Shown piece by piece: positions 14,620 to 43,842 of a DNA stretch of 43,861 nucleotides. Below the pieces are notes generated by a model. The model saw only the letters and a list, made by a program, of their open reading frames with translations, was not told where the DNA came from and searched no databases. How positions within the stretch are numbered: the stretch's first letter is position 1; each line of letters opens with the position of its first letter. The stretch spans positions 1 through 43,861 of the forward strand of contig CANRDL010000006.1 in assembly GCA_947629405.1 (NCBI GenBank). The letters run 5' to 3'. The position numbers were made by a program, and so were the translations under genes. This DNA comes from an uncultured Bacilli bacterium. Lineage in GTDB: Bacteria; Bacillota_I; Bacilli_A; RF39; UBA660.

Positions 14620-14722
14620 CCCTTTTTTTAAAATTTTTTTAATTTTTTTGTTTTAAGTTAAAATCTTTTTTAAGAATGGTATATTATTTAGGTAAATTAA
14701 TTTTCTTTAAAATAAAAACTTC

Positions 14723-14757
14723 TTAGGTATTTTGATAAGTATATCAAAATGACCTAA
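14723..14757 (-). terminator. Probable terminator after def
   Basis: The 318-base gap between pncA and def holds the pncA promoter at one side and, near the other, a long hairpin with arms TTAGGT ATTTTGATA and TATCAAAAT (G) ACCTAA around a 4-base loop. A T-rich run follows on the minus strand. The rest of the gap is A/T-rich with nothing else recognised. Confidence 0.65.
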
Positions 14758-14824
14758 AAAGTATTTTTTTCTATATTGTCATTGCTGCCTAAAAAAATAC
14801 AACAAGCCTCTAAATATTACTTTG

Positions 14825-15442
14825 TTAATTTTTTTCAGAATTATTTTGCAATAAATCTTGATATTTTCCAATTTTGGATACAATATTATACGGGTGTGTT
14901 TGTCTAAAAACTTTACGATCTTCTTCTGCCATTTCCAATACTTCATCTGCTATATCCATATGTAATATTCCATCTAGATGATCCATCTCATGTGATAAAA
15001 CAGTAGATTCAAGTCCTTCAAAAATATCTTTATGTTTTTTTCCATCAATATCAAGATATTCAACTATAATTTTATATGGCCTTTTTACATGTCCCATAAA
15101 GTCCAAACAACTGGCACATGCTTCCCAATAATCAGTGAGACCATATCTTTCAATAATAACTGGATTTATTAAAAGTCTTGATTCATTGTAATTTTCTTCA
15201 TCTTTTGTAGTTTCATTTTTTTGGATTTTATTAATAATATCTAAATTTGTATTTTTGATATATATAAGTCTTTTGGAAATTCCAAGTTGTACAGCAGCCA
15301 TTGCCATTACACCATTTTCTTTACAATATTCTGCTAATACATTAATATCATTCTTCAATTCCTTATCATTTAAATCAACTTTAGAAGAAACTTGTCTTAA
15401 ATATTTTTCATTATCTTTTATTGTTATTGCTGTTTTTTTCAT
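14825..15442 (-). CDS. def: Peptide deformylase, divergent
   Basis: This 205-residue metalloenzyme removes the formyl group from new proteins. Motif 3 is intact as LSHEMDHLDGILH (metal-binding HExxH). Motif 1 is GVMAMAAVQLG in place of GxGLAAxQ, and motif 2 is ACASCLDF in place of EGCLS, with the metal-ligand Cys kept. It is therefore probably active but belongs to a divergent branch. The ATG has AAAGGAAAA upstream. Its leader carries a copy of the short inverted repeat found before several accessory genes. Confidence 0.88.
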   Translation of the reverse strand: MKKTAITIKDNEKYLRQVSSKVDLNDKELKNDINVLAEYCKENGVMAMAAVQLGISKRLIYIKNTNLDIINKIQKNETTKDEENYNESRLLINPVIIERYGLTDYWEACASCLDFMGHVKRPYKIIVEYLDIDGKKHKDIFEGLESTVLSHEMDHLDGILHMDIADEVLEMAEEDRKVFRQTHPYNIVSKIGKYQDLLQNNSEKN

Positions 15443-15476
15443 ATTTAATTTTTCCTTTCAGAATATGATTTTCTTA

Positions 15477-15494
15477 ATTGAAAAATATATCAAT
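15477..15494 (-). promoter_or_regulatory. Leader inverted repeat, copy before def
   Basis: ATTGA-8-TCAAT with spacer AAAATATA. The surrounding minus-strand sequence (ATTGATATATTT..TCAATT then AAGAAAAT) matches the leaders near 16060, 18950 and 27610. A tRNA-end-like GGTACCATTGATA lies just upstream at about 15519-15531. Confidence 0.5.
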
Positions 15495-15533
15495 ATTCGA
15501 TAAAGTTTGAATAGAAATATCAATGGTACCACT

Positions 15534-16001
15534 TTATTTGGTTAGATTTTCAACAAAATGATATATTTTATTTGGATTAATTATTGCTTTCTTTATTTCA
15601 CTCGGAAAAATTTTATAATTATTAATTTTATCTACATCAATCCATTCAAAATTAATCCAATCACCTTCGAGTCCTTTAAATTTAATTTTATCGATATTAC
15701 CTTCAAAAATTCCTTGATATATCAAATTAATCTGCTGATTATAATACCCTTTATCTTCGACAAATTCTTCGCTAATAGCTAGGAATGAATATTTTAAGTT
15801 TTTATAACCAAGTTCTTCTTCTATTTCTCTTTTTAATGCCTGTAAACTTTCTTCTTTTTGTGTGGCTTTACCTCCAGGTAACAAATAAATATCTCGTCCT
15901 TCACAATTAAATAAAAGAACTTTATTTTTGTCTTTATTAAAAATAACACAAGATACACGATATAAGAATTGATAATCATTATTTATATATTTTATATCCA
16001 T
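15534..16001 (-). CDS. Nudix hydrolase
   Basis: About 155 residues with a complete Nudix box, GGKATQKEESLQALKREIEEELGY, preceded by YLLP. It hydrolyses some nucleoside-diphosphate derivative; the substrate cannot be read from sequence. ATG at 16001 with AGAGGAG upstream is clearly the start (a TTG at 16043 is not). It is a single-gene unit behind the conserved promoter-leader module, outside the NAD cluster. Confidence 0.88.
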   Translation of the reverse strand: MDIKYINNDYQFLYRVSCVIFNKDKNKVLLFNCEGRDIYLLPGGKATQKEESLQALKREIEEELGYKNLKYSFLAISEEFVEDKGYYNQQINLIYQGIFEGNIDKIKFKGLEGDWINFEWIDVDKINNYKIFPSEIKKAIINPNKIYHFVENLTK

Positions 16002-16020
16002 TTTTTTCTCCTCTTTCAGT

Positions 16021-16097
16021 AAATTGATTATGTCAATTTGCAAGTGTATTTTCTTTAATTGACAAATATATCAATTTAACCTATAAAAATTATAGCA
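16021..16097 (-). promoter_or_regulatory. Promoter-leader module before the Nudix gene
   Basis: Extended -10 TGC TATAAT (16089-16097) is followed by two inverted repeats: AATTGA-8-TCAATT (16057-16076) and AAATTGA-TTATG-TCAATTT (16021-16039), joined by ACTTGC-like sequence. Sister copies lie near 18.93, 27.6, 40.05 and 43.7 kb. Confidence 0.65.
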
Positions 16098-16114
16098 TAA
16101 ACTAAAAAATTTAA

Positions 16115-16141
16115 AAACTCAAACTATAAAAGTCTGAGTTT
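16115..16141 (-). terminator. Hairpin of the CTCGAACT family, part of the module
   Basis: AAACTCAAACT-5-AGTCTGAGTTT, followed by a T-run on the minus strand. The same hairpin follows tRNA-Thr (27659) and the gene at 39088 (39040-39078), always just upstream of a module promoter. Confidence 0.65.
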
Positions 16142-16219
16142 GATATTTATTTATTGCAGTTAAAAATTTTATTATTTACTGTATTCATTTAAACACCTTA
16201 TTATTTTTATATTAATTAA

Positions 16220-16262
16220 AAAACAAGTATTTTTAGTGTTCAAATTTTTTAATACTTGTTTT
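16220..16262 (-). terminator. Terminator of the secreted coiled-coil gene
   Basis: A perfect 12-base stem AAAACAAGTATT / AATACTTGTTTT with a 19-base loop; on the minus strand it ends in TTTTTTAATT. Confidence 0.8.
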
Positions 16263-16284
16263 TTAATTTTAGACTATTCAATAA

Positions 16285-17304
16285 TTAAGCTTTTTCATAT
16301 GTTGCTATATATTTACCTGAAAGAACACCTTCACCTAGCTCGTTTGAAACTGCTTTTCTTGAAGATATCAATTCCCAACCCATAAATTTATATCCATATT
16401 TTGCAGCTGGTGCAGTAAGTGTAATACTAGTTATATCAGCACGTCTTGCTATTAATAAAGTACCAACTTTTGAACCTGTTCTAGAATCTGTAAATCCTTC
16501 GCATTTATTTAAATCACATTCTACTTCAATAAACCAAATGTGTCCACTATCACCACAGAAGCTTTCTGTACAACGGATTGGTAATGTTTTGTTTGTACTA
16601 TAGAAGTGGAACTCAACTGTTTTCTTTTCAGCTTCTTTTCTTATTTCTTTTTCTTGTCTTTTAGTTTCTTCATTTATTTTATTTAATATATCTGGATAAT
16701 TACTAAGATCATATTTTGATCCTTGTTCTTCTTCCTCTTTTTGTTTTGTTGTTGTTTTATTATTATTTACATTTGAATTAGATGCAGATTTTTTGCTTGA
16801 AGTATTTTGGGTTGGTTTATTTTCATTTTCTTCTATGGCAGCAAGTTTTTCTTCAATATTTTGTTTATTTTGTTCTTTTTGTTCTACTGTTTTACTTGCT
16901 TCCTCTACTTTCTTTTCAGCTAATTTCTTTGTTTTCTTAGCTTGCTCTAGTTTTGATGTTGCAGCATCTATTTTTTCTTGTGCTATTTTTCTTTCTTCGG
17001 GTGTTTTTGCATTTTTTAGTTCAAGCATAGCTTCTTCTTTCTCTTTAGAAGCTTTATTAATTGTTTCTTCAGCATCTTTTACTTCTTTTTCGGCTTTTGC
17101 TTTAGCCTCTTTAGCTTCATTTAATTCTTTTTCTGCTTGTAATTTTTCTTGTTTTACATATTCTAAATAAGAATTCTTTTGGTCGGCTTTAGCAATATTA
17201 GTTAATTGGGCGTTATCAGTATAATTTTTGGTTAAAACACCTGCACCTGTTACAGCTCCAAGTGATAGAAAACCTATCATTGTTTTAATTAAAATATTAT
17301 TCAT
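16285..17304 (-). CDS. Secreted coiled-coil protein with a cysteine-containing C-terminal domain
   Basis: 339 residues. An N-terminal signal or anchor (ILIKTMIGFLSLGAVTGAGV) is followed by a long Lys/Glu/Ala-rich coiled coil (about residues 45-165) and a Ser/Asn/Thr-rich linker (165-195). A C-terminal domain with four Cys (CTESFC and CDLNKC) ends in GYKFMGWE ... YIATYEKA, the pattern of a Listeria-Bacteroides-type repeat. This looks like a surface protein holding a small disulfide-rich domain away from the membrane. No enzymatic motif was seen. AAGGAGG precedes the ATG. It has its own promoter and terminator. Confidence 0.8.
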   Translation of the reverse strand: MNNILIKTMIGFLSLGAVTGAGVLTKNYTDNAQLTNIAKADQKNSYLEYVKQEKLQAEKELNEAKEAKAKAEKEVKDAEETINKASKEKEEAMLELKNAKTPEERKIAQEKIDAATSKLEQAKKTKKLAEKKVEEASKTVEQKEQNKQNIEEKLAAIEENENKPTQNTSSKKSASNSNVNNNKTTTKQKEEEEQGSKYDLSNYPDILNKINEETKRQEKEIRKEAEKKTVEFHFYSTNKTLPIRCTESFCGDSGHIWFIEVECDLNKCEGFTDSRTGSKVGTLLIARRADITSITLTAPAAKYGYKFMGWELISSRKAVSNELGEGVLSGKYIATYEKA

Positions 17305-17365
17305 AAATAATCCTCCTTAATTATTATATGTTATAGTCAAAATGTTTCCCCTTGTTGTTGCATAT

Positions 17366-17394
17366 ATTATATAACATTTTTAGTAAAAAGTAAA
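17366..17394 (-). promoter_or_regulatory. Promoter of the secreted coiled-coil gene
   Basis: Minus strand TTTACT (17389-17394), 17 bases, TATAAT (17366-17371). Behind it, plus-strand TTTACA is repeated at 17414, 17427, 17438 and 17444. Confidence 0.65.
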
Positions 17395-17497
17395 GATATA
17401 ATCCTACACTATTTTTACACAATGTTTTTACATTATTTTTACATTTACAAAATAAAAACATAAATATTTAAATTTGTTTTACTACCTTTTATTTTTA

Positions 17498-18277
17498 TTA
17501 TTTTTTTAAAACTTTAGAGTAACCTTTATCTAATAAATTACTAAAATCATTGGGAAGTTTTTTCTTTGCTTCTTCTATTAATTCACTAGAAATTCCATAT
17601 AATGCCTCTGCCATTGAACCAACTATACAAGCATTTGTATCTGTATCTCCTCCATAAGAAATTACTTTTTTTAATGATTCATCAAATGAATTTGAATCAA
17701 ATAATGCATATAAACAATTATTAATAGTTTCCTTACAAGTAACATTAAATTTTGTGAAAGGTTTGTATTCATATTTTAAATTCAATTTTTTTATTATTTC
17801 TTCTTTTGTTAATCCTATTCGTGAATAATAGATTATTAACGAAACTATAACAGCACTATGTATAGCTTCAGGAGAATTGTGTGAAGGAATTGTAGCTTTG
17901 ACTGCATTTTCAATTATCTCTTCTTTAGTATTAAATAAATAACCAACTGGCGATATTCTCATCATAGCTCCATTGCCAACGCTATTGCCAATTTTATTAT
18001 TTTGCGACCAGTTTGCAAATCTAGGTGAAAAAGCACTTTTGAAATATGGACTAAAATTAGGTTTATAATTCATAAAATCTTTAGCATATTTTTTTAAATA
18101 AAAAGTATAATCTTTATTATTTAAAATACTATCAAGGATAGCAATTGTTAAGATGGTATCATCACTATAAAAACTCTTTTCACAGATAAGATTAACTGGT
18201 TTTAATTTTGTTATTTTTTTGGTTTGCTCATATTCATATACTGAGCCAGCCAAATCTCCAATAATTGCTCCCCACAT
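17498..18277 (-). CDS. ADP-ribosylglycohydrolase family protein
   Basis: A 259-residue DraG/ARH-type hydrolase that should remove ADP-ribose from a protein or small molecule. The N-terminus GAIIGDLAGSVYEY, the metal motif YSDDTILT, GNGAMMRISPVG, and near the C-terminus GGDTDTNACIVGSMAEA with the second metal-binding Asp pair make the assignment clear. GAGGTAAT precedes the ATG. It follows the GNAT gene by about 100 bases. No ADP-ribosyltransferase gene is visible nearby. Confidence 0.93.
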   Translation of the reverse strand: MWGAIIGDLAGSVYEYEQTKKITKLKPVNLICEKSFYSDDTILTIAILDSILNNKDYTFYLKKYAKDFMNYKPNFSPYFKSAFSPRFANWSQNNKIGNSVGNGAMMRISPVGYLFNTKEEIIENAVKATIPSHNSPEAIHSAVIVSLIIYYSRIGLTKEEIIKKLNLKYEYKPFTKFNVTCKETINNCLYALFDSNSFDESLKKVISYGGDTDTNACIVGSMAEALYGISSELIEEAKKKLPNDFSNLLDKGYSKVLKK

Positions 18278-18379
18278 AGTATTACCTCTTTTTTATTTAT
18301 TAAATTCATTTTTAATTTTTACTAGAAAAATTCGTATTTCCTATCAATCCAGTGGGAGTAAAAAAGTATATTTACAACT

Positions 18380-18871
18380 TTATAATTCAAATAAATAAAT
18401 ATTTTCAATATATTCTTCTCTAAATAAATGATTACCTATATACTTTCCACCAAGATGTTTATAAAAATCATTAGAAGGATTACCATCTAAACATCCAATT
18501 ATTAATTTTTTTATTCCTTTTTTCATAATATTTTTAACAGCATAATTATATAACAATCTGCCATAACCATTTCCCTGATATTCTTTTAAAATATATAAAG
18601 AATGTATTTCAGCTGCATTTTCATATTTGTCACTATCTAATGTATAATCAATCCAGCCAATTATTTTGTCTTGTAAAGTTAAAACATAATAATTTGATTG
18701 GTCATTTATATTATTTTTTAATCTTTCAGCATTTTTATTTTCATTATCTAATAACCCTTTTAAAAAATCATCATCAACAATTCCTTTGTATGTTGTATTC
18801 CAAACAAGTGCAATAGAATGCGCCAATTCATCTGAATCTTCTATTTTTCTTTTTCTAATTATAGGTTTCAT
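18380..18871 (-). CDS. GNAT-family N-acetyltransferase
   Basis: About 163 residues. The acetyl-CoA loop is YQGNGYGRLLYNY, after the strand IHSLYILKE, and the C-terminal strand FYKHLGGKYIG is typical. The substrate is unknown; protein, small-molecule or antibiotic acetylation are all possible. ATG at 18871 with AAGGAG upstream is the start; codons further upstream are leader. It is a single-gene unit behind a copy of the promoter-leader module. Confidence 0.88.
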   Translation of the reverse strand: MKPIIRKRKIEDSDELAHSIALVWNTTYKGIVDDDFLKGLLDNENKNAERLKNNINDQSNYYVLTLQDKIIGWIDYTLDSDKYENAAEIHSLYILKEYQGNGYGRLLYNYAVKNIMKKGIKKLIIGCLDGNPSNDFYKHLGGKYIGNHLFREEYIENIYLFEL

Positions 18872-18902
18872 AACTATCAGCTCCTTAGAAAAAATATCAA
18901 AT

Positions 18903-18979
18903 GCATGTTGTTTTTCAATATGCAAGTTTATTTTCTAAATTGACAAATATATCAATTACATTCTATAAATATTTTATCA
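18903..18979 (-). promoter_or_regulatory. Promoter-leader module before the GNAT gene
   Basis: Extended -10 TGA TAAAAT (18971-18979), then AAATTGA-8-TCAATT (18937-18957), then GCATGTTG-TTTTT-CAATATGC (18903-18923). It is nearly identical to the copy at 27567-27642. Confidence 0.65.
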
Positions 18980-19056
18980 TAAATTAAAATATTTTAAAGA
19001 TAAATTCTTTACATTCGAAATTATTATAATTTATAATAAACAACATTATTTTAATT

Positions 19057-19704
19057 TTATTCATCTATAAAATCTTTTAATTTTTTTGTGTTTCTAGGAT
19101 GTCTCATTTTAACTAATGCTTTTTGTTCTTGTTTAGCAATTTTATATCTAGAACATCCAAATATCTCTGCTACTTCTTCTTGTGTTTTTTTATGTACATC
19201 ATCAAGACCATATCGTAATAAAATTATTTGTTGTTCTCTAGATGTCAAACATTGCAAAGATTCTCGGACAATATCTATTTTCATTTCAGATATTACATCT
19301 TTTATTAATTGTTCAGCATCAGTACTAACAATATCTTCTATTTTCATTTCATCGCCATCTTTATTCTGACCTATTGGTTGTTCAAGGCTTAGTACTTGAC
19401 TATGTTTGTTATATTTTCTTAATTCATACCTTATTTGATTTTCAATTGCAATAGAAATATATGAACTAAATGCTTCTATTGCTTTTTCATTATAGTCAAA
19501 TTTATTGATTGCATTTATTAAACCAGCATTACCAGCAGATTGTAATTCATCAAAAGTTAGACCTTTATTTAAATATTTACCAGCAAAAAATCCAATTAAT
19601 CCGCCATTATAAATCACTAAAGCTTTTAATGCTTCTTTATCAGCATGTTCTCGCCATGCTATTAAATATTTTTTTGTTTCATCCAATGATAATACTTTAG
19701 CCAT
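19057..19704 (-). CDS. Small sigma-70 family RNA polymerase sigma factor
   Basis: About 215 residues. Region 2 is recognisable in LTFDELQSAGNAGLINAINKF followed by FSSYISIAIENQIRYELRKY (2.1-2.4), and region 4 in LTSREQQIILLRYGL ... TQEEVAEIFGCSRYKIAKQEQKAL, a helix-turn-helix for the -35 box. Region 1.1 is absent, as in alternative sigma factors. ATG at 19704 follows a GGTGG-like site; an ATG five codons upstream lacks a ribosome site. It lies directly downstream of the two tandem-SANT genes but has its own promoter and a leader of about 100 bases. Which genes it serves is unknown. Confidence 0.87.
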   Translation of the reverse strand: MAKVLSLDETKKYLIAWREHADKEALKALVIYNGGLIGFFAGKYLNKGLTFDELQSAGNAGLINAINKFDYNEKAIEAFSSYISIAIENQIRYELRKYNKHSQVLSLEQPIGQNKDGDEMKIEDIVSTDAEQLIKDVISEMKIDIVRESLQCLTSREQQIILLRYGLDDVHKKTQEEVAEIFGCSRYKIAKQEQKALVKMRHPRNTKKLKDFIDE

Positions 19705-19746
19705 TACTTTCACCACCATTTTTTTAATTTTATCATTTTCTTGTGA

Positions 19747-19839
19747 AAAGCTAAATCTTCAACTTTAGCACCGGTAGGTATTTCTAATCAATGTTTTTTC
19801 CTAATTGTTTATTATATATTGTATTTCCTTATCTGTAAA
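19747..19839 (-). promoter_or_regulatory. Promoter and structured leader of the sigma gene
   Basis: Minus strand TTTACA (19834-19839), 17 bases, TATAAT (19811-19816). The roughly 100-base leader carries the hairpin GCTAAA-8-TTTAGC followed by TTTT, which could be an attenuator. Confidence 0.6.
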
Positions 19840-19859
19840 CTTTTATTTTTTTATAGCAA

Positions 19860-22214
19860 TCACTTTTTTTTAATATCTTTTATATTAACTAATCTAGATT
19901 CAATTTCATTTTCACTATGTTCATTAGTTTCCTTTACCTGTTCTGAATCTAAAAAATATTGTTTAGCTAACAACAACTGTTGTTTTGTCAAACTTTCTAT
20001 TCCAAACTCACCCACTGGCAATAATCTATCCTTAATTCTCTTTTCCTTCAGCCAATCAGGTTCTACTCCTAAAATATTCTTTTCTAAATTTCTGCTATCC
20101 CATATATTTTGATTTTTTTCTAAAAATTCATATAAGTCTTTTATTTCTACATATCTATAACTTTTTAATTTTGATATTTTTTGAACTTTATATTTTAATC
20201 CTAACCCAATCCAACCAACACTAACTGTATTTATATTTACACCAAATAAATCACTAATATCTTTAATTGTTAAACCTTTATAATTATTTTCTATCGCAGA
20301 TCCTAAACCTAAAGAAGCTGCTTTATTTGTAATTGCTGATACAGTTCTATTTAATTTCTTTGCAATATTCTCTATTGATTCTAAACCCCATAAATCAGAT
20401 AATAAAGTTTCTTCTTCCTTTGTCCAATTTTTATGTTTTAAATCAATATTATATCCTAGCCTAATTGCCTTTACAATTATTACTTCTTCGCTTCTTTCTA
20501 ATATTTCGGCAACTTCAGATAAAGAATGGGAAGTTAGCAGTTCTAATAGTTTTAATTCCTCTTCTTTTGTCCATTTTTTGTTAGAATAATTTTTGGCTCT
20601 TATTCCTAATTGATATAATTTATTAACAATTGATTCATAAGACTTATTCATTTTTTCAGCAATCTCTTCTATCGAAAAATTATCTGATAACCTTTTTAAT
20701 TCGTTTTCCTTTTCTTTTGTCCAAAACTTCGAGCTTTGAACTGCTTGAATTCCAATATATTTTAATTTCGCATTAACTGATGAAGTTGTACGCCCTAGAA
20801 GATATGCAATTTCATTTATTGTATAATCTTTTGCATATTTTCTTAATAATTGTTCTTCAGCTGAAGACCAACTTTTTCTCTTTTCATATTTCAATTCTAA
20901 ACCTAAAGCTTTAGCTTTTTTACGAATAACAGATTCAGATTTTCCCATAACTTTTGAAATAAGATGAAGTTCATAACTATCATGTAAATTTATTAGTGTT
21001 TGGGTATCTTTTTCAGTCCATTTTTTTTGTTTATTTGTATTTATTTGAATTCCAAGTTTTACTGCTTTATTATATACTTGTCTTTCAGTTTTTTTAAGAA
21101 TTTCAGCTATTTCTTCAGTTGTATGTGTTTTAGATAAGTTAATTAATTTATTAACATCCTTATCAGTCCATCTCATACTTGAATTAGCAAGGTCACCTTT
21201 CATTTTTCTAATTTGATGTCTGATTGCATTTGCTTTCATATCCATTTCTTTTGAAATTTCTTTTATTTTTAATCCTTGGTCTATTAATTTTTCTAATTTG
21301 CTAACTAATTCATCAGTCCATACAACTTTTGAATCAATTAATTTAATATTATTTTTGCTAGCAATTTTAGAAATTTGAGTAGGTGATGTTTTATACTTCT
21401 TTGCTAGTTCATTCCTAGATTTCGTTTTAGCATCTTTTCTTAATTTACTTATTATATCTTCAGTCCACTTTTTTTGTTGTCCTGTATTGGGAAGATTTAA
21501 TTCTTTTTTATATCTATTTAAAATACCAATACTAATTTTTAAATTTCTTGCTATTTCTGTAGCAGAAATTTTCCCCCAATTATCTTTTATATATTTAATT
21601 TGTTTATCATCTAACTTTGTATTTGAAGATATTGTTTTAATTCCTAATTCATAAGCTTTTGCAGAAATAGCTCCAATTGTTCTATTTGGCAACACTTTTG
21701 TTAATTCAGTATAATGACACTTATCAGCATATTCTCTTAATATTTTAATTTCTTCTTCAGTCCAAAGATTATTGTTATATTCAATTCCCAATTCTTTACA
21801 TTTAGTTAATATTGAACGATAACTTAAACCAATCATTGATTCTATTTGTCCTATAGGTTGCTTATTAATATTATCTTTTAAGTAATCTATCATCCATTTT
21901 TTCCAAGGATCAGTGGTTGAATGTAATTCAATTCCTAATTTAACAGCTTTTTTTTGAACAGCTAAATAACTTCTTCCTAATTTTTTGGCTATTGTCTTTG
22001 TAACATATTTTTTTGAATATTCACGAAGAAGCTTTTCTTCCTCTTTTGTCCAACGATTACTTTTATATTCTTCTAAACCAATCTCACTTGCTTTTTCTCT
22101 TATAGTTTCTTCTGTTGTATGAAAATCAGAAGCAATCTTATACAATGATTTAGTATTCCATATATTTTTTAGTTCTTCTACTTTTTCTTCAGTCCAATAA
22201 AATTTCTGTTTCAT
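19860..22214 (-). CDS. Tandem Myb/SANT-like repeat protein, 13 repeats, with a C-terminal HTH domain
   Basis: 784 residues with no membrane segment. By eye it divides into 13 units of about 50 residues, each starting with W (WT.EE), an L..L core, then an EIA..L.RT..AI..KA..LGI helix. That is the Myb/SANT or small HTH pattern seen singly in phage and bacterial DNA-binding proteins. One unit starts KLDD instead of W. The C-terminal 130 residues have a different HTH (LTIKDISDLFGVNINTVSVGW) plus a tail with WDSRNLEKNILG and EPDWLKEKR. An array of this length suggests binding along an extended DNA site or a repeated target. The ATG overlaps the TGA of the upstream paralogue. Function is not known to me. 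Confidence 0.82.
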   Translation of the reverse strand: MKQKFYWTEEKVEELKNIWNTKSLYKIASDFHTTEETIREKASEIGLEEYKSNRWTKEEEKLLREYSKKYVTKTIAKKLGRSYLAVQKKAVKLGIELHSTTDPWKKWMIDYLKDNINKQPIGQIESMIGLSYRSILTKCKELGIEYNNNLWTEEEIKILREYADKCHYTELTKVLPNRTIGAISAKAYELGIKTISSNTKLDDKQIKYIKDNWGKISATEIARNLKISIGILNRYKKELNLPNTGQQKKWTEDIISKLRKDAKTKSRNELAKKYKTSPTQISKIASKNNIKLIDSKVVWTDELVSKLEKLIDQGLKIKEISKEMDMKANAIRHQIRKMKGDLANSSMRWTDKDVNKLINLSKTHTTEEIAEILKKTERQVYNKAVKLGIQINTNKQKKWTEKDTQTLINLHDSYELHLISKVMGKSESVIRKKAKALGLELKYEKRKSWSSAEEQLLRKYAKDYTINEIAYLLGRTTSSVNAKLKYIGIQAVQSSKFWTKEKENELKRLSDNFSIEEIAEKMNKSYESIVNKLYQLGIRAKNYSNKKWTKEEELKLLELLTSHSLSEVAEILERSEEVIIVKAIRLGYNIDLKHKNWTKEEETLLSDLWGLESIENIAKKLNRTVSAITNKAASLGLGSAIENNYKGLTIKDISDLFGVNINTVSVGWIGLGLKYKVQKISKLKSYRYVEIKDLYEFLEKNQNIWDSRNLEKNILGVEPDWLKEKRIKDRLLPVGEFGIESLTKQQLLLAKQYFLDSEQVKETNEHSENEIESRLVNIKDIKKK
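20045..20415 (-). repeat. Duplicated C-terminal segment (second copy near 22393-22765)
   Basis: The DNA for the last repeat, the HTH and the WDSRNLEKNILG tail is almost identical in the two SANT-repeat genes, while most upstream repeats have diverged. This marks the genes as recent duplicates or as exchanging sequence. Confidence 0.8.
21590..21785 (-). repeat. Duplicated repeat units 4-5 (second copy near 23663-23858)
   Basis: Repeat 4 (WTEEEIKILREYADKC.YTE) and the start of repeat 5 (KLDDKQIKYIK) are nearly identical in DNA between the paralogues, flanked by units that differ strongly. Confidence 0.8.
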
Positions 22215-24295
22215 TTTTTTATACCTCTTTTTAAAAATATCTGGGGATTTCTCTCGTCAATAGTTGATTCTTCTGATTCTTTTGGTTCCTCTTGTAATTC
22301 TAAAAAAAATTTTCTTGCCAGTATCAATTGTTGTTTTGTTAAATTTAATCTTTCCATATCTGGATTTTTTTCTTTATCTAACTTTCTTTTTTCTTTTAAC
22401 CAATCAGGTTCTACTCCTAAAATATTCTTTTCTAAATTTCTGCTATCCCATATATTTTGATTTTTTTCTAAAAATTCATATAAGTCTTTTATTTCTACAT
22501 ATCTATAACTTTTTGATTTTGATATTTTTTGAACTTTATATTTTAATCCTAACCCTATCCAACCAACACTAATTGTATTTATATTTATACCTAATAAATC
22601 ACTGATATCTTTAATTGTTAAACCATTATAATTATTTTCTATTGCTGCTCCTAAACCTAAAGAAGCTGCTTTATTTTTAATTGATGATACAGTTCTATTT
22701 AATTTCTTTGCAATTGTTTCAAACGATTCTGTCCCCCACAAATCAGATAATAAAGTTTCCTCTTCCTTTGTCCAAAATCTTTTGTTATTTGTTTGAATTT
22801 GTAATCCTCTTCTGTTTATTTTAATTATGATTGCATCTTCAGTTCTTCCAAGTATCTTCGCAATTTCTTTCGGAGTTTTCTTATCGACCATAGTTAGTTT
22901 TTCCAGTAGTTTATATTCTTCTTCTGTCCAACTTTTTCTATCTTGTATTAAAGTTATTCCTAATTGCTTAGCCATTGTTTTTATTGAACTACTTGTACGA
23001 TTTAACTCTTTAACTAATTCACTTATTTTTTTAGTGTGAGAAAGTTCTTTTAATCTATTCATTTCTTCGCTAGACCATCTTCTTCTTTGTTTTTCCTTTT
23101 TTATATCTAAATTTAATTCTCTAGCTTTTTTTAACACTGTGGTATCTTTTTTATTCATTAAACGGCAAATTTCTAACAAAGATTTACCCTCACCCACTAA
23201 CATTTGCAATTTCTTAGTATTTTCATCACTCCATACACTATCCATAAATTTTTTATCTGGTATTAACTTTATATTTTGTCTTCTGGCTTGCAAACGAATA
23301 GCATTAGTAGTTCTATTCATTTTTATGGCTAGTTCTGATAAATCTAAAGTTTTAGATAGTTCTCGTAAAAGGGCATTATCTTCCTCAGTCCAATGAATTT
23401 TATCATCGTTTAAACAAATGTTGTTTTTGTGTGATATGTATATAATTGCTTCATTAGTTGTATTAAAATACCTTGCTAATTCAGTTATAGATTTTTTGGG
23501 AGCTAATTGTCTTAATTTTATTATTTTTTCTTCTGTCCATTTTTTATATGGATTATTTCCTAATTTTGGAAGATTCATTTTATTAGCCTGAGATTGAATC
23601 ATTACTCTACTGACACCTAAGTTTCTTGCCATATCATTAACTGCAATAATACCCCAATTATTTTTTATATATTTGATTTGTTTATCATCTAATTTTGTAT
23701 TTGAAGATATTGTTTTAATTCCTAATTCTCTAGCTTTTTCAGAAATAGCTCCAATCGTTCTATTTGGCAACACTTTTGTTAATTCAGTATAATAACACTT
23801 ATCAGCATATTCTCTTAATATTTTAATTTCTTCTTCAGTCCAAAGATTATTGTTATATTCAAGACCAAGTTCTTCAATTTTTTCGATAATTTGAGAATAA
23901 TTTACTTCTAATTCTTTTTGAATTTTTAATAATGATAATTTATTGATATTTTCTTTTAAAAATTTTACTTTCCATTTTTTCCACACTGGCCTTTTAAAGA
24001 TTAATTTAATTCCTAATTCTCTAGCTTTTTTATTTATCTCATTGATAGAGCGATTAAGTTTTCTTGCTATAGTTTTATTTAAATATTTTGGAGCCATTAT
24101 TTTTAATAATTCTATTTCTTCATCACTCCATCTTCTTACTGTTTTCTTTTCTACTTCAAAGCCTAAAATTTTTGCTCTACGTTGAACTGTCTTTATTGCA
24201 CAACCAATATGTTTTGCCATTTCACTAAAAGTTTTATTTCCAAAATTATTTTTTATATATTCATCTTCTTTTTTTGTCCAAATTCTTTGAATCAT
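22211..24295 (-). CDS. Tandem Myb/SANT-like repeat protein, 11 repeats, with a C-terminal HTH domain
   Basis: 694 residues, the upstream paralogue of the previous protein. I count 11 units of about 50 residues from WTKKEDEYIKNNFGNKTFSEM onward, most with the W..EE and EIA..L.R...I..KA..LG pattern. The same C-terminal HTH (LTIKDISDLLGININTISVGW) and tail follow. The two proteins differ in repeat number and in the predicted recognition helices of most repeats. The start follows GGGGATG and an extended -10 promoter. It is translationally coupled (ATGA) to the second gene. The pair plus the nearby sigma factor form an unusual regulatory locus; the target is unknown. Confidence 0.82.
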   Translation of the reverse strand: MIQRIWTKKEDEYIKNNFGNKTFSEMAKHIGCAIKTVQRRAKILGFEVEKKTVRRWSDEEIELLKIMAPKYLNKTIARKLNRSINEINKKARELGIKLIFKRPVWKKWKVKFLKENINKLSLLKIQKELEVNYSQIIEKIEELGLEYNNNLWTEEEIKILREYADKCYYTELTKVLPNRTIGAISEKARELGIKTISSNTKLDDKQIKYIKNNWGIIAVNDMARNLGVSRVMIQSQANKMNLPKLGNNPYKKWTEEKIIKLRQLAPKKSITELARYFNTTNEAIIYISHKNNICLNDDKIHWTEEDNALLRELSKTLDLSELAIKMNRTTNAIRLQARRQNIKLIPDKKFMDSVWSDENTKKLQMLVGEGKSLLEICRLMNKKDTTVLKKARELNLDIKKEKQRRRWSSEEMNRLKELSHTKKISELVKELNRTSSSIKTMAKQLGITLIQDRKSWTEEEYKLLEKLTMVDKKTPKEIAKILGRTEDAIIIKINRRGLQIQTNNKRFWTKEEETLLSDLWGTESFETIAKKLNRTVSSIKNKAASLGLGAAIENNYNGLTIKDISDLLGININTISVGWIGLGLKYKVQKISKSKSYRYVEIKDLYEFLEKNQNIWDSRNLEKNILGVEPDWLKEKRKLDKEKNPDMERLNLTKQQLILARKFFLELQEEPKESEESTIDERNPQIFLKRGIKK

Positions 24296-24328
24296 ATATA
24301 TTCATCCCCAAAAAGTAATTTATTTAAT

Positions 24329-24337
24329 ATTATACCA
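24329..24337 (-). promoter_or_regulatory. Extended -10 promoter of the SANT-repeat pair
   Basis: Minus strand TGG TATAAT, about 33 bases before the start codon; no strong -35. Confidence 0.5.
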
Positions 24338-24394
24338 TATATTTTATCTTCATTGTTACTAAATTATTTCCCCCTCGATATATGTATTGTAAAG

Positions 24395-24403
24395 TGGTAT
24401 AAT
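24395..24403 (+). promoter_or_regulatory. Extended -10 promoter of the plus-strand PH-like genes
   Basis: TGG TATAAT on the plus strand, divergent from the SANT promoter. The leader from here to 24528 is about 120 bases and shows nothing else that I recognise. Confidence 0.5.
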
Positions 24404-24527
24404 TTAATTGTGAGCTAAAAGTAAAAACTAATAAATTGTACCTGCTGCTAATTTAAAATTTTTAAGAGCTACAAATAATAAACCTCATATAATGAAAATA
24501 AAATTTAAAAATATTTGGAGGAAATTA

Positions 24528-24839
24528 ATGAAAAATGAAATGGTATTTGGTCCTTTATCAAATAAGAGATTTTATGTAAAAATAATAGATAATTATATAA
24601 ATATTAAAACTGGTGGAATAGCTATATTAAATTCTAAAAGTACAACTAAAAATATTGATATTCAAATAAATGAAATAGCAAATATTGAAATAGATACACC
24701 AATATTGAAACCAAGAAACTGGAATCTTAAAATTACTCAAAATAGTGGTTCTGTTTTTACAATACCAATATTTTCTCCTAAACAGAAAAAATTAGCTTTT
24801 ATATTGAAAGATGAAATTAACAAAATTAAACAAAAATAA
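24528..24839 (+). CDS. Small hypothetical protein, possible PH-like fold
   Basis: About 103 residues, soluble, beta-rich with a final helix. ATG at 24528 is preceded by TGGAGG; an ATG at 24492 has no ribosome site. The order of strands (ERFYVKIIDNYINI-like start, then I.INEIANIEID) resembles the small bacterial PH domain of its neighbour, which suggests a related fold, but there is no motif to prove it. Confidence 0.65.
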   Translation: MKNEMVFGPLSNKRFYVKIIDNYINIKTGGIAILNSKSTTKNIDIQINEIANIEIDTPILKPRNWNLKITQNSGSVFTIPIFSPKQKKLAFILKDEINKIKQK

Positions 24840-24954
24840 TTTTCTTTCTATATAAATATGAAGATGAAGCTGATAAATATATTAAATTTTTGATAGAAAC
24901 TTGCTAGTATAGAAGTTTTTATATAAATTTATAAAAATTGTAAGGAGGTAAAAA

Positions 24955-25293
24955 ATGAGTTCAAGAACAAGTTGGTTAGCAATAATTCCTGATATTTTGT
25001 TAATGTGCGTACTTATAGGTTTTATTACTATTTGGAAAAAACTTATAATTATACTAACTACAAAATTAAATATTGATGATAAAATAGTATCTGCTAAAAC
25101 TGGTTTAATTAATATTCAAACATTAGATTCACCTATCAACAAAGTTACATCTGTAAAAGTTGAACAATCTATATTTGGCAAAATATTTAATTATGGAAAT
25201 ATATATATTAATACTGCATCAGGACAATTTATATTTAAATGTTTAAATAAACCAAATGATATAAAAAATTATTTAGTAGAAAAAATGAAATAA
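24955..25293 (+). CDS. Membrane-anchored bacterial PH-domain (YdbS-like) protein
   Basis: 112 residues. One N-terminal transmembrane helix (AIIPDILLMCVLIGFITIW) is followed by a bPH_2-type domain: KIVSAKTGLINIQT, then the loop and strands INKVTSVKVEQSIFGKIFNYGNIYINTASG. This run is the standard YdbS/YdbT signature. Such proteins sit at the membrane, and their role is mostly unknown. AAGGAGG precedes the ATG, and a strong terminator follows. Confidence 0.8.
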   Translation: MSSRTSWLAIIPDILLMCVLIGFITIWKKLIIILTTKLNIDDKIVSAKTGLINIQTLDSPINKVTSVKVEQSIFGKIFNYGNIYINTASGQFIFKCLNKPNDIKNYLVEKMK

Positions 25294-25299
25294 AAAATC

Positions 25300-25327
25300 C
25301 CCTACTTACTGTAATAAGTAGGGTTTT
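25300..25327 (+). terminator. Terminator of the PH-domain gene
   Basis: CCCTACTTA-6-TAAGTAGGG followed by TTTT: a perfect 9-base stem. Confidence 0.85.
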
Positions 25328-25402
25328 GAAATATAGAACTACTTATAGAAAAAATTTATAACACATTAGGACTTTTCTATGCTTTTATTATAGTACCAAA
25401 GA

Positions 25403-25434
25403 AAAAGTAAACACATCTTTTTGTGTTTACTTTT
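25403..25434 (-). terminator. Terminator of the XRE / DUF4097 operon
   Basis: AAAAGTAAACACA-6-TGTGTTTACTTTT, a perfect 13-base stem with T-runs usable on both strands. Confidence 0.8.
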
Positions 25435-25473
25435 ATCTTATAGTCTTAATAAAAAACTCACTATTTACTTTTT

Positions 25474-26361
25474 TTAATTATTTACTTCTATATCCCCACA
25501 ATCATTTTCTATTTTTAAGATAATATTAGATTTATTATAATTATTTTTAATATTTACTTTCCCTAAATCTGTTTTAGCATTAATAAACAATTCATTTGTA
25601 TTACCTATTTCTATATCACCATAATCATCTTTTATGTAAGAATCTTTTTTTAAATTAATATTATTAAGTTCTATATCCCCACAATCATTTTCAAGATGTA
25701 GGTAATTATCAACTGAATTAATTTTTATATCTCCATAACTATTTTTTACTGTCGCTTCATTTGTATTAGAAATTACAACATCACCACAATCTTCATTTAT
25801 ATTTGATACATTAGCTTTTCCTATTTCTATATCACCATAATTATTATCTATTTTAACGATATTACCACCAAGTATTTTAACATCTCCACAGTCTTCTTTA
25901 ATATCAATATTAGTATTTAAAAATTCATCAATAAAAATATCACCATAATCATTTTTTATATTAATATTTCCATCATATTCTTCTGGTAAATATATTTCTA
26001 TCTTGGTCGATTTCTGATTAAAACAAAATCCTATACAATTTTTTTCACTTGTTTTAATGTTTAAAGTATCATGATTAGTTTCTACAGCAGTATAAGCTTT
26101 TTCACCATAAATTATAGTTTTAATATTTTCCGTATCAGATCTTTTTATAAAAATTTCATTTACAGTAGCATCTATTATAATATTATTAAATTTTTCTTCA
26201 TAAATCTTATCTAATATTAATTCATTACTATTTTGTAATCCAAATCTAAAATCTTTAAATTTAAAACCATTTTGTAAAAGACCAACGAAAAATATTGAAA
26301 GGACTATCATAATGATAGATAATAAAATAATTAAAGTTATAATCCATTTTTTATTTTTCAT
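25474..26361 (-). CDS. DUF4097-like membrane-anchored repeat protein
   Basis: 295 residues: an N-terminal transmembrane helix (IITLIILLSIIMIVLSIFF), then a beta-solenoid type region. From about residue 130 a repeat of about 20 residues alternates between a YGDI and a CGDI/CGDV core (NDYGDIFI, EDCGDVKI, NNYGDIEI, EDCGDVVI, NSYGDIKI, NDCGDIEL, DDYGDIEI, a LGKV variant, NDCGDIEV). This is the pattern of DUF4097 / LiaG-type envelope proteins. The strict Tyr/Cys alternation is unusual. It overlaps the end of the XRE regulator gene, so both are one unit, and it is probably an envelope-stress factor. Confidence 0.82.
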   Translation of the reverse strand: MKNKKWIITLIILLSIIMIVLSIFFVGLLQNGFKFKDFRFGLQNSNELILDKIYEEKFNNIIIDATVNEIFIKRSDTENIKTIIYGEKAYTAVETNHDTLNIKTSEKNCIGFCFNQKSTKIEIYLPEEYDGNINIKNDYGDIFIDEFLNTNIDIKEDCGDVKILGGNIVKIDNNYGDIEIGKANVSNINEDCGDVVISNTNEATVKNSYGDIKINSVDNYLHLENDCGDIELNNINLKKDSYIKDDYGDIEIGNTNELFINAKTDLGKVNIKNNYNKSNIILKIENDCGDIEVNN

Positions 26362-26992
26362 CTTTATAGCTCCTTAACATAAATACTAATTTTAATATTT
26401 CTTCAAACAAGCCAAATATTACCCATATTATCCATGTTAAATGCCAAGCCATAGTCTTAAAACTAATAATTAAGTATATAATAGCAACTATTATTGCTAC
26501 TACATTTGAAATTTGATTTCTTAATTTATCAGCTTCTGTTTCTTTATTTTTTATTTTTTTATATTTAATACATACATAGATTATTATACCTGTTGCTATT
26601 CCACAAATAAGTAAAAATATAGCAGAAGCAACTATTGGATTCATATTCATAACCGGAATTGAAATCATTATCCATACAATTCCCAAAAAATATAATACAA
26701 TACTAACGGCTATTCCTTTTGCTTTTTTACTTGTCTTTAATTTTTCTGCTGAATCAATAACAAATTCCGTATTTTTAGAAGTTTCTTTTCTTTTTAATTC
26801 AATAAACAATTCATCTGTAGTTATACCATATAATTCACATAAAGGAACAACTTTATCAAAATCAGGCATACTTTGATTTGTTTCCCATTTAGAAATAGTT
26901 TGTCTAGTAACATTTAATTTTTCTGCTACTTCTTCTTGAGATAATTTTTTATCTCTTCTTAGTTTAAATAATCTTTCACCTAAATTATTCAC
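26351..26992 (-). CDS. Membrane-bound XRE-family transcription regulator
   Basis: About 213 residues. The N-terminal Cro/XRE helix-turn-helix (LGERLFKLRRDKKLSQEEVA ... VTRQTISKWE) is followed by a linker and about four hydrophobic segments, the layout of membrane-tethered XRE regulators that sense the envelope. The best start is GTG at 26992, 6 bases past GAGGTG; a GTG three codons earlier overlaps that ribosome site. The 3' end overlaps the DUF4097-like gene. A long inverted repeat upstream may be its own operator. Confidence 0.87.
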   Translation of the reverse strand: MNNLGERLFKLRRDKKLSQEEVAEKLNVTRQTISKWETNQSMPDFDKVVPLCELYGITTDELFIELKRKETSKNTEFVIDSAEKLKTSKKAKGIAVSIVLYFLGIVWIMISIPVMNMNPIVASAIFLLICGIATGIIIYVCIKYKKIKNKETEADKLRNQISNVVAIIVAIIYLIISFKTMAWHLTWIIWVIFGLFEEILKLVFMLRSYKDEK

Positions 26993-27012
26993 TTTCTTCA
27001 CCTCACACTAAA

Positions 27013-27073
27013 ATTATACATTTTATTTTAGTTGCAATCTACCTGTTTGAGTTAGAAATTTGTCAACTAAAAT
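27013..27073 (-). promoter_or_regulatory. Promoter and inverted-repeat operator of the XRE gene
   Basis: TATAAT at 27013-27018 lies close to an inverted repeat with arms ATTTTAGTTGCAA (27025-27037) and TTGTCAACTAAAAT (27060-27073), which match apart from one extra base, 22 bases apart. TTGACA in the far arm could serve as an upstream promoter box. Confidence 0.55.
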
Positions 27074-27162
27074 TAACATTTTAATAATTATACTACAAAA
27101 AAAGCAAACTATTTCTAATTTGCTCATATAAATTATAATTGAATTGAAGTCCAAATTCAGTT

Positions 27163-27543
27163 TTATTCATGTTTTTTTGTTAAAGAATAAATTCTTTTCA
27201 AAACAGCATTATTATCATAATTATCATATTTTGGTGCATTTTCAATTTCTGAAATTTGGAATAAATCCCAAAATTCTAGTTTAAAGTGATAAGTAGCGAT
27301 TCCTTCTGGTGTGTTAATCCCAGCAATAAAACATCCATTAAACATTGGATCATTTTTTTCATCAAAATGTTTTTTTGATTTCCAAGATATATCAGGATTA
27401 CTATTACATAAAGTGCAAAATAAAATCAATCTATTCTTATATAAATCTTCAAACGTATGATATCCATCACTTATTTGCTTTACTGAAATATTGCCATTCA
27501 TTTTTTCATTTTGTATTAAATTATTTAATTCGTTTATATTCAT
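27163..27543 (-). CDS. Small hypothetical protein
   Basis: 126 residues, soluble. I recognise only a general resemblance to phage-type proteins of unknown function carrying HTFEDLY.NR..LF near residue 30 and a WDLF ... APKYD stretch toward the C-terminus. It is a single gene with AGAAGG before its ATG and a full copy of the promoter-leader module, standing directly downstream of tRNA-Thr. Confidence 0.75.
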   Translation of the reverse strand: MNINELNNLIQNEKMNGNISVKQISDGYHTFEDLYKNRLILFCTLCNSNPDISWKSKKHFDEKNDPMFNGCFIAGINTPEGIATYHFKLEFWDLFQISEIENAPKYDNYDNNAVLKRIYSLTKKHE

Positions 27544-27566
27544 AATTTACCTTCTTTTTATTCAAT

Positions 27567-27642
27567 GTATATTGTTTTTCAATATGCAAGTTTATTTTTT
27601 AAATTGACAAATATATCAATTCAATCTATACATATTTTATCA
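27567..27642 (-). promoter_or_regulatory. Promoter-leader module before the 27163 gene
   Basis: Extended -10 TGA TAAAAT (27634-27642), inverted repeat AAATTGA-8-TCAATT (27601-27621), then GTATATTG-TTTTT-CAATATGC (27567-27587). It is the closest sister of the copy at 18903. Confidence 0.65.
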
Positions 27643-27658
27643 TAAATTATAGTATATT

Positions 27659-27696: not shown

Positions 27697-27772
27697 TGGT
27701 GCCGAAGGTAGGAATCAAACCCACAACCTACTGATTACGATTCAGTTGCTCTATCGATTGAGCTACTTCGGC
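27697..27772 (-). tRNA. tRNA-Thr (CGT)
   Basis: Minus strand: acceptor GCCGAAG / CTTCGGC, anticodon stem ACTGA/TCAGT with loop ATCGTAA giving anticodon CGT (codon ACG), T-loop TTTGATT, and an encoded CCA end. Full length of 76 bases. Confidence 0.95.
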
Positions 27773-28299: not shown

Positions 28300-28320
28300 A
28301 CCTTTTCCTTATTATAAAAA

Positions 28321-29088
28321 TTATTGTATTTCATTTTTAATTAAATATTCATGATAATTTTTAATTTCTATACTTTTCATTACAAATTCATAAAATGTTT
28401 TTATATTTTTATACATTAATTCTTTATTTAAAGTATTTATACATTCATTAAAATATTTTTGTAAACTTTTATTAATTTTTCCTTTATATTTGTAATTTTT
28501 TTGATATTTTTTATCATTAATAATTTTATTCATTTTTTCTTTTTGGATAGGTGCATATTTATTATAGACTTGATATAAATTAACTATTCTATTAAGTAAT
28601 TCAAAATATAAAATAGCAAAATCATCGTCATTATTTTGATAAGAATATTCCAATTCTAAAAATAAATCTTCGGCAAAACTAATCAACTTCTTCAATTCAT
28701 TAATTTCCTTTTTTTCATATTCTTTTTTATACCACTTTGAAGCTTCATTTTGTAATAATTTTACATTATTATTTTTATCAAATAAAATTTTACTATTAGC
28801 TATCATATTTGTATTGACAGGATTATAATTATTAAAATCTCTTTTAAAGGCATTTTTAAAATTATTTAAAGTATTTATAAAATATTCAATAGTTATTCCA
28901 TCGATTATTGTTGATCCTCTTCCATACCATTTAGCTTCATTATTTAAAATTATTAAAAAATCTAAATCACTAGTTGAATTGAAAAAACCATTAACATAAC
29001 TTCCAAAAATAATAATTCCTTCAATATTTTCTTCTTTTTGCCATTTTTGTACAAATTTATTTATTATTTTATTATATTTATTTTGCAT
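28321..29088 (-). CDS. Nucleotidyltransferase-domain protein
   Basis: 255 residues. Residues 23-47 carry the pol-beta-type core IIIFGSYVNGFFNSTSDLDFLII: GS, then two Asp separated by one residue. The C-terminal 140 residues are helical, as in aminoglycoside-type nucleotidyltransferases. It could transfer AMP to a small molecule, tRNA or protein; no separate HEPN antitoxin-type gene is adjacent. AGGAGG precedes the ATG. Confidence 0.8.
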   Translation of the reverse strand: MQNKYNKIINKFVQKWQKEENIEGIIIFGSYVNGFFNSTSDLDFLIILNNEAKWYGRGSTIIDGITIEYFINTLNNFKNAFKRDFNNYNPVNTNMIANSKILFDKNNNVKLLQNEASKWYKKEYEKKEINELKKLISFAEDLFLELEYSYQNNDDDFAILYFELLNRIVNLYQVYNKYAPIQKEKMNKIINDKKYQKNYKYKGKINKSLQKYFNECINTLNKELMYKNIKTFYEFVMKSIEIKNYHEYLIKNEIQ

Positions 29089-43122: not shown

Positions 43123-43180
43123 AGCTTTTTATAATTATAAGAAAAAGCGTCTTTTATTAAAAGTGCGTGTATTAACCTCA

Positions 43181-43208
43181 ATGGTGCCCTAAAGGAAGAG
43201 TACAACAA
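43181..43208 (-). repeat. tRNA-3'-end-like remnant, copy 2
   Basis: Minus strand AGTTGTTGTAC ... TTCC ... GGGCACCA, directly after the GNAT stop codon. It is near-identical to the copy at 40137-40175. Confidence 0.5.
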
Positions 43209-43210
43209 CT

Positions 43211-43660
43211 TTATAAATTAATAGTTAATGTTTCACTTTTTGTTTTGAAATTGCTTTTTTCATATAAGCGTTTAGCTTTGATATTATTACTCCATACGTT
43301 TACTTCTATTTTATGGACATTTTTGGATTTAGCCCACTTTTTAAAATGTTCTATTAAAGATGTAGCAATTCCATTATTACGATAATTATTATCAATGTAT
43401 AATGCATCTAATTTGGCAATTATATATTTATATGTATCATCATTTGGTTTAATAATTCCATATAAATAACCTACAATTTGACTATTTTCTTCAGCAACAA
43501 TAAGCAATTTATTAGAATCTTCAATATAATTTTCATACATATTAGTGACAATAAAGTTTTCATCAATTCCTGAGTCATATTGTCTTTCATCTCTTATTAA
43601 AAGTGTTAAAAAATTATTTAATATTTTTACATCACCATAATCTGCTTTTCTAATTATCAT
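43211..43660 (-). CDS. GNAT-family N-acetyltransferase
   Basis: 149 residues. The acetyl-CoA loop is YRNNGIATSLIEHF, the preceding strand is LDALYID, and the C-terminal strand RLYEKSNFKTKSETL closes the fold. The substrate is unknown. GTGGAGG precedes the ATG. It lies behind a partial copy of the promoter-leader module, and a tRNA-end-like remnant follows it directly. Confidence 0.9.
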   Translation of the reverse strand: MIIRKADYGDVKILNNFLTLLIRDERQYDSGIDENFIVTNMYENYIEDSNKLLIVAEENSQIVGYLYGIIKPNDDTYKYIIAKLDALYIDNNYRNNGIATSLIEHFKKWAKSKNVHKIEVNVWSNNIKAKRLYEKSNFKTKSETLTINL

Positions 43661-43685
43661 TTATATACCTCCACTAATAAATACT

Positions 43686-43757
43686 CATATTGTCTATGAC
43701 AATATGCAAGTGTGTTTTCTAAATTGTCCTAATTTCTTTATAAAACATATTGTACCA
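43686..43757 (-). promoter_or_regulatory. Promoter-leader module before the GNAT gene (partial copy)
   Basis: Extended -10 TGG TACAAT (43749-43757), the conserved CAATTTAGAAAA and ACTTGC segments, and a perfect 9-base inverted repeat CATATTGTC-TAT-GACAATATG (43686-43706). The first inverted repeat is degenerate here. Confidence 0.6.
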
Positions 43758-43778
43758 AGAACAAAAGTTTGATATAAT
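43750..43778 (+). promoter_or_regulatory. Promoter of the gene at the right edge
   Basis: TTGTAC (43750-43755), 17 bases, TATAAT (43773-43778) with TGA extension. Its -35 overlaps the -10 of the divergent GNAT promoter. Confidence 0.65.
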
Positions 43779-43842
43779 TTTTGCAGGGAAACTTAATTGT
43801 TGAGTGCTTGCCAACTTTCTTTTAGAAAGGAGGCTTGATATT

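Follow-up and report, generated by a model that had tools for sequence, protein, structure and literature searches.

Two bacterial proteins built of 11 and 13 tandem Myb-like helix-turn-helix (HTH) units are encoded, together with an extra sigma factor, in one compact operon of an uncultured Bacilli bacterium, and we consider it probable (roughly 0.58) that these arrays are regulators of transcription that bind double-stranded DNA and serve as DNA-bound partners of RNA polymerase loaded with the sigma factor that is encoded beside them. The operon lies on a stretch of 43,861 nucleotides that was analysed at its full length (hereafter the window), which corresponds to contig C6 of a genome of 1.13 Mb that is 89% complete.

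The first gene of the operon (positions 22211-24295 of the window; minus strand, as are all operon features given below) encodes the 694-residue protein P0002, in which 11 three-helix tandem units (approximately residues 3-551; 22643-24289) are followed by a winged-HTH domain of MerR/HTH_17-like character (approximately residues 556-612; 22460-22630), whose HTH_17 match falls below the Pfam cut-off and which is homologous to the domain modelled in P0001. The second gene (19860-22214), whose start codon is joined to the stop codon of P0002 by an ATGA overlap, encodes the 784-residue protein P0001, comprising 13 such units (approximately residues 4-641; 20292-22205), a winged-HTH domain after unit 13 in the AlphaFold2 model (20115-20282; helices at residues 650-657 and 661-670, strands at 676-679 and 685-689, and a helix at 691-700), and a C-terminal helix (residues 739-766; 19917-20000) that is conserved, is missing from the short relatives described below, and is a candidate protein-contact segment. 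The units, cut by hand, are 46-53 residues in length (approximately 49 being typical) and follow the pattern W(T/S)xEE...L...eIA..L.R(S/T)xxxIxxKAxxLGI. A profile of the P0002 units matches 13 of 13 P0001 units at 20.9-59.8 bits, and the reciprocal profile of the P0001 units matches 11 of 11 P0002 units at 21.6-59.4 bits; against 2000 shuffles of P0001, the top scores of the two profiles were only 9.9 and 12.4 bits. An earlier sequence-only reading of this DNA had described 13 and 11 tandem units, each array closing in a different HTH, and both descriptions were confirmed by the reciprocal profiles, the shuffles, and the AlphaFold2 model.

The same reading had assigned the unit to the Myb/HTH type, an assignment that structure prediction upholds with three helices per unit. 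When P0001 was modelled by AlphaFold2 with six orthologues, 13 successive helix triplets were obtained, followed by the helix-helix-strand-strand-helix succession of a winged HTH; the model of the whole protein has a mean pLDDT of 68 and a pTM of 0.23, such that it describes the single units rather than their overall arrangement, and a three-unit model (units 9-11) reaches a mean pLDDT of 90.9. Searched against the PDB, the sequence profile of the triplet matches Cbp1 (2lvs; 1.2e-7), c-Myb (6e-7), and RcsB (approximately 1e-4), and among the better Foldseek matches, none of which falls below an E-value of 0.001, are Reb1-DNA, SNAPc, c-Myb-DNA, Cbp1, and DUX4-DNA. The Pfam Myb models are exceeded by both proteins (PF13921, cut-off 22.9: 49.8 bits for P0001 and 31.2 for P0002; PF00249, cut-off 24.4: 45.5 and 41.1 bits, respectively). 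As most units retain only the first of the three tryptophans of canonical Myb, the name Myb-like is preferred over canonical Myb. The third helix carries a net charge of at least +1 in 20 of the 24 units, which appears to fit the DNA-binding Myb type better than the acidic SANT type; together with the Cbp1 and c-Myb profile matches, this charge supports the DNA binding that had been presumed for the units, and the array proteins are presumably binders of double-stranded DNA. Pfam GcrA (PF07750, cut-off 26.9) matches P0001 at 35.8 bits, the best stretch covering profile positions 3-44 of 155 and thus the DNA-binding part only; the best matches to this profile stop short of the part that represents the C-terminal sigma-interacting domain of GcrA, and no sigma-binding domain was recognised in the array proteins. 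Finally, the phage family phrog_323 (PHROG 323, "transcriptional regulator, D5-like") matches P0001 at 6.4e-113 and P0002 at 1.2e-86, over several stretches each, with E-values that are partly inflated by the repeated hits.

The last gene of the operon (19057-19719) encodes an extra sigma-70-family factor of 220 residues with regions 2 and 4. In the intact operon, found at loci L040, L048 (genome G252), and L049 (genome G021), the genes for the 11-unit array, the 13-unit array, a short protein, and the 220-residue sigma factor follow one another with frames that overlap or abut, and at L040 and L048 the four frames overlap end to end; the short protein is a relative of approximately 350 residues that consists of three units, a winged domain, and two further units. 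In the window, this third gene has been deleted down to a remnant (19701-19863) between the 13-unit gene and the sigma gene, of which the first ~75 nucleotides, 24 internal nucleotides, and the last ~74 nucleotides remain, with in-frame stops. A -10-like TATAAT hexamer (24329-24334, within TATGGTATAAT) located 33 nucleotides before the first ATG is a putative promoter element of the operon; a similar hexamer is present at L048 and L050, and the remaining upstream DNA is not conserved.

Of the ten loci that have long arrays and complete flanks, nine (all but G296) have a sigma gene immediately downstream, seven of these factors being of the ~220-residue type and two being RpoD-like paralogues. 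The latter, which end the array operons of G031 (372 residues; L052, 8533-9651) and G289 (375 residues; L053, 7837-8964), are additional to the housekeeping RpoD of the same genomes, to which they are 48% and 34% identical, respectively; because these two genera carry a different, replacement sigma factor, it can be argued that the sigma factor is functionally required. The 220-residue type itself is present in 10 of the family's 386 genomes (E 1e-45), and seven of these ten are among the 16 genomes with strong array or short-form matches (Fisher p = 5e-9, a significance that is overstated since the species are related). In G400, G328, and G275, the 220-residue sigma factor is present and no array was found nearby. 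As candidate identities for the factor at 19057-19719, SigK (137.8 bits against an NCBIfam cut-off of 252) and SigE (124 bits against 339) were both rejected, and in the tree the factor forms a clade separate from either.

Array genes come and go, and some sigma factor stays with nearly all long arrays. The 11-unit gene of G285 has been lost by an internal deletion that left its first ~174 and last ~60 nucleotides; G371 holds the 11-unit gene, the short gene, and the sigma gene; G181 encodes one 13-unit protein with an 11-unit-like first unit, followed by a short gene and a sigma gene, as well as a second short-sigma pair; G033 is limited to the short and sigma genes; G296 has an 8-unit array and no adjacent sigma gene; and the short gene stands alone at seven loci, with no sigma gene nearby. 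One lone short-form gene (L064, in G148:C92; 7820-8749) sits between genes whose starts resemble GAPDH and phosphoglycerate kinase, and solo short genes of other genera have unrelated genes on either side; these scattered places suggest movement without a recognised mobile element. All of the genomes are draft assemblies (the named ones being metagenome-assembled), and some of the operon variants could be assembly gaps; the pseudogene remnants, and the order of the repeats in several independent assemblies, argue that the main features of the operon are real.

Of 386 genomes in the family, 19 contain relatives of the 13-unit protein, a count that may fall short where genomes are incomplete. 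In a sample of 392 genomes of the phylum, relatives of the 13-unit protein were present in this genome and G021 only; among viral contigs, no relative was found with the 13-unit protein and five weak relatives were found with the short form. Those sequence relatives that have names are metagenome-assembled Bacilli, and several bear gut sample names. Each genome has other genes around the operon, and among the listed gene starts next to it none was recognised as an integrase. In the window, the operon is held by a 13-kb segment (14633-27643) that is missing from G001, a genome of the same genus, in which the DNA of both flanks is 92-94% identical; the right edge of the segment is approximately 54 bp from the 3' end of a tRNA-Thr gene (27697-27772). 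As the tRNA-Thr gene of G001 is closely followed by a homologue of window positions 43174-43840, the region around this tRNA gene has been rearranged. Other genes of the neighbourhood include one for a 339-residue protein (16285-17304) that has no Pfam or PHROG match and is weakly similar to the mycoplasma MG_279/MG_280 family (E 5e-4), and one for a DraG-type ADP-ribosylglycohydrolase (17498-18277), located two genes downstream of the sigma gene with a GNAT acetyltransferase between.

The 13-unit gene is maintained by selection, and the two arrays exchange segments with one another. For the four closest orthologues of the 13-unit gene, dN/dS lies at 0.18-0.33, which indicates purifying selection along the whole gene. 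The slowest part of the 13-unit protein is the block of units 2-5 (21477-22058; pN 0.02-0.07, with units 2 and 3 at approximately 0.03), in which the predicted reading positions are 80-100% identical among those four orthologues, and units 7-11 are among the fastest (0.11-0.15). Two tracts bear the mark of gene conversion. In the 11-unit protein, unit 4 and the beginning of unit 5 (23657-23857) form a tract that is 63-92% identical to 13-unit proteins as opposed to 42-51% to its own orthologues. In the 13-unit protein, the tract covering unit 13 and the winged domain (19937-20427) is 11-unit-like, the winged domain being 77-84% identical to that of every 11-unit protein except the most distant of the five (68%) and just 48-68% identical to that of its own orthologues. 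Because each tract resembles the other array more than its own kin, exchange has taken place in both directions within one operon. An assembly chimera was rejected as the source of the exchanged segments, given that the tracts are 75-87% identical in DNA rather than identical, as a chimera would predict, and that the array layout recurs in independent assemblies.

Whether the units read DNA one after another was approached through c-Myb repeat 3, the base contacts of which we take to be N179, K182, N183, N186, and S187, corresponding to columns 37, 40, 41, 44, and 45 of the unit alignment. These predicted reading columns are among the most variable between units and also among the fastest-evolving across species (mean pN 0.22 versus 0.12 for all non-core columns; permutation p 0.001, which is indicative, the column set having been chosen after the variability table was made, on the c-Myb alignment and not on rates). 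Their dN/dS is approximately 0.4-0.6, compared with 0.05-0.09 for the core and 0.2-0.3 for other surface positions. The predicted reading positions are well kept in units 2 (100%), 4 (90%), 3 (83%), and 5 (80%) of the 13-unit protein and in units 10 (100%), 8 (80%), and 11 (73%) of the 11-unit protein, and those of the short protein are conserved like its other surface positions (0.73 versus 0.70). The sequence-only reading had taken the differences in the presumed recognition helix from repeat to repeat to suggest modular reading of one long or repeated site. Such an inference is not borne out: between orthologues, it is the predicted reading residues that change fastest, and they are kept in some units only. 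The same reading had passed over the sigma factor of the operon, the loss of the short gene, and the exchange between the arrays. Judging from these rates, either the target would shift with the species or many units may read no bases at all, the reading being loose. Footprinting of the upstream regions of approximately 20 operon loci revealed, by eye, shared promoter- or RBS-like sequence only and no long motif, and a search for the target as tandem repeats within the window yielded short AT-rich repeats only, one of which (28314-28421) has a period of 39 and approximately 2.8 copies.

In the explanation that we favour, a single Myb/HTH unit would have expanded into arrays of 11 and 13, each closed by a winged HTH, and the arrays would be made, along with a dedicated alternative sigma factor, from one translationally coupled operon, which in most relatives would also supply the short protein of three units, winged domain, and two units. 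The arrays would cover tens of base pairs within target promoters or upstream of them, and would hold or recruit RNA polymerase bearing the co-encoded sigma factor, such that a small set of promoters would be served. A common footing would be provided by the constrained parts, namely units 2-5 in the 13-unit protein and, in the 11-unit protein, the winged domain and units 8, 10, and 11, and the remaining units would drift or become retargeted via point changes and exchange between the arrays. The arrays are cast as partners of sigma-loaded polymerase because their near-constant companion is a sigma factor, because this factor is replaced in two genera, and because the operon is coupled; from these observations we infer both activation and a partnership of arrays and sigma factor at the level of the proteins. 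Precedents are offered by GcrA, in which a related DNA-binding unit brings sigma-loaded polymerase to promoters, by T5 D5, a related multi-unit protein with an annotated part in late transcription, and by Cbp1, whose tandem HTH units follow a long DNA element. Points against this explanation are that no target DNA was found, that no sigma-binding domain was recognised, that short forms occur solo, that G296 has an array and no adjacent sigma factor, that G400, G328, and G275 have the sigma factor and no array nearby, and that the predicted reading residues are unconserved between species in most units. A bolder version, according to which each Myb unit reads a few base pairs, point changes and segment exchange retarget the array, and the sigma factor delivers RNA polymerase to the new site, is regarded as unlikely.

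The rate at which the predicted reading residues evolve (pN 0.22 versus 0.12) is also what would be expected if nothing were read, and it supports an account in which the arrays are chromatin-like or architectural proteins that coat long DNA cooperatively with little sequence preference and affect transcription indirectly. That account, which we hold to be possible although rather improbable, draws further on the annotation of T5 D5 as a DNA-binding protein with general roles and on the ability of Cbp1, the best PDB profile match, to make chromatin-like structures with Cren7 (PMC10883916); it sits poorly with the stable pairing with an extra sigma factor, with individual units that are strongly conserved (pN approximately 0.03 in units 2-3 of the 13-unit protein) yet unlike each other, and with a patchy distribution (19 of 386 genomes) that is unlike that of a general nucleoid protein.

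The patchiness and the fast-changing predicted reading residues may also speak for a system of defence, or one directed against mobile elements, that would detect incoming DNA through rapidly evolving readers, to which the position of the operon in a 13-kb segment that G001 lacks and that ends near tRNA-Thr, and the local similarity of the sigma factor to MzaA of the MZA system, may be added. We give very little credence to this possibility: effector domains (nuclease, TIR, etc.) are absent, the PADLOC matches (MZA, mads) are local and confined to generic HTH and sigma regions with no whole-protein match, and dN/dS at the reading positions stays below 1. Slightly less doubtful, albeit still quite improbable, is a role of the arrays as maintenance factors of a replicon or mobile element (partition, copy control, or replication) that were captured by the chromosome, since on Priestia megaterium plasmids the genes for replication and stabilisation are closely followed by short relatives of the same architecture and further relatives occur in phages; however, the surroundings of every copy from gut Bacilli look chromosomal and vary from genome to genome, and the operon is devoid of replication, partition, and integrase genes.

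The unit and its general kind are already known, as attested by phrog_323, which groups smaller relatives, and by Pfam Myb models that are matched above cut-off; the open-access literature searched gave no description of arrays of 11 and 13 units, of the operon with sigma factor, of the pattern of loss, or of segments exchanged between arrays. Elsewhere in this analysis, bacterial Myb/HTH units occur singly or in short runs only, and runs of 11 and 13 with a dedicated sigma factor would allow array length, per-unit specificity, and sigma recruitment to be separated. If the units do read DNA serially, the orthologues, with their common frame and differing reading residues, would constitute a data set for a Myb code; if they do not, the arrays would represent an unusual sigma-linked, chromatin-like protein.

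Among known systems, T5 D5, whose annotation is that of a DNA-binding protein needed in DNA replication and late transcription, matches the same phrog_323 profile (1e-71) and gives weak hits to the units, but it has 255 residues and approximately 4-5 degenerate units rather than 11-13 clear ones, no winged domain of this type was recognised in it, and no sigma gene is beside it in the stretch seen. The relatives on Priestia megaterium plasmids (L080, 5598-8894; L081, 5568-8867) and phage KLEB27-3 gp98 share the unit type and a middle winged/HTH_17-like domain and differ in having three to five units and no adjacent sigma gene in the stretches seen; some of the Priestia megaterium copies bear the label "sigma-70 family RNA polymerase sigma factor", which seems to have been given in error on account of their HTH units. 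Cbp1, the CRISPR-repeat-binding protein of the Sulfolobales (PDB 2lvs) and the best PDB sequence-profile match, lays tandem HTH units along a long DNA element (PMC10883916), although it is archaeal and has three units, a Cren7 partner, and a CRISPR-repeat target. GcrA, which has a small DNA-binding and a sigma-binding domain and recruits sigma-A polymerase to promoters (PMC7403470), possesses an HTH-type DNA-binding domain related to the array units (PDB 5yiu, E 0.015); it has a single unit, however, its partner is the housekeeping sigma factor, and its sigma-interacting domain is unmatched in the arrays. Eukaryotic Myb proteins (c-Myb R1-R3, Reb1, and SNAP190) are built of the same three-helix unit, whereas they have two to approximately five units and three spaced tryptophans. 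Lastly, TAL-effector-type readers are likewise long arrays with residues variable at set positions, but they have another fold; in the Myb-like arrays, from which no code, target, or one-unit-one-base relation emerged, the variable positions coincide with the c-Myb base contacts and are not kept between orthologues in most units.
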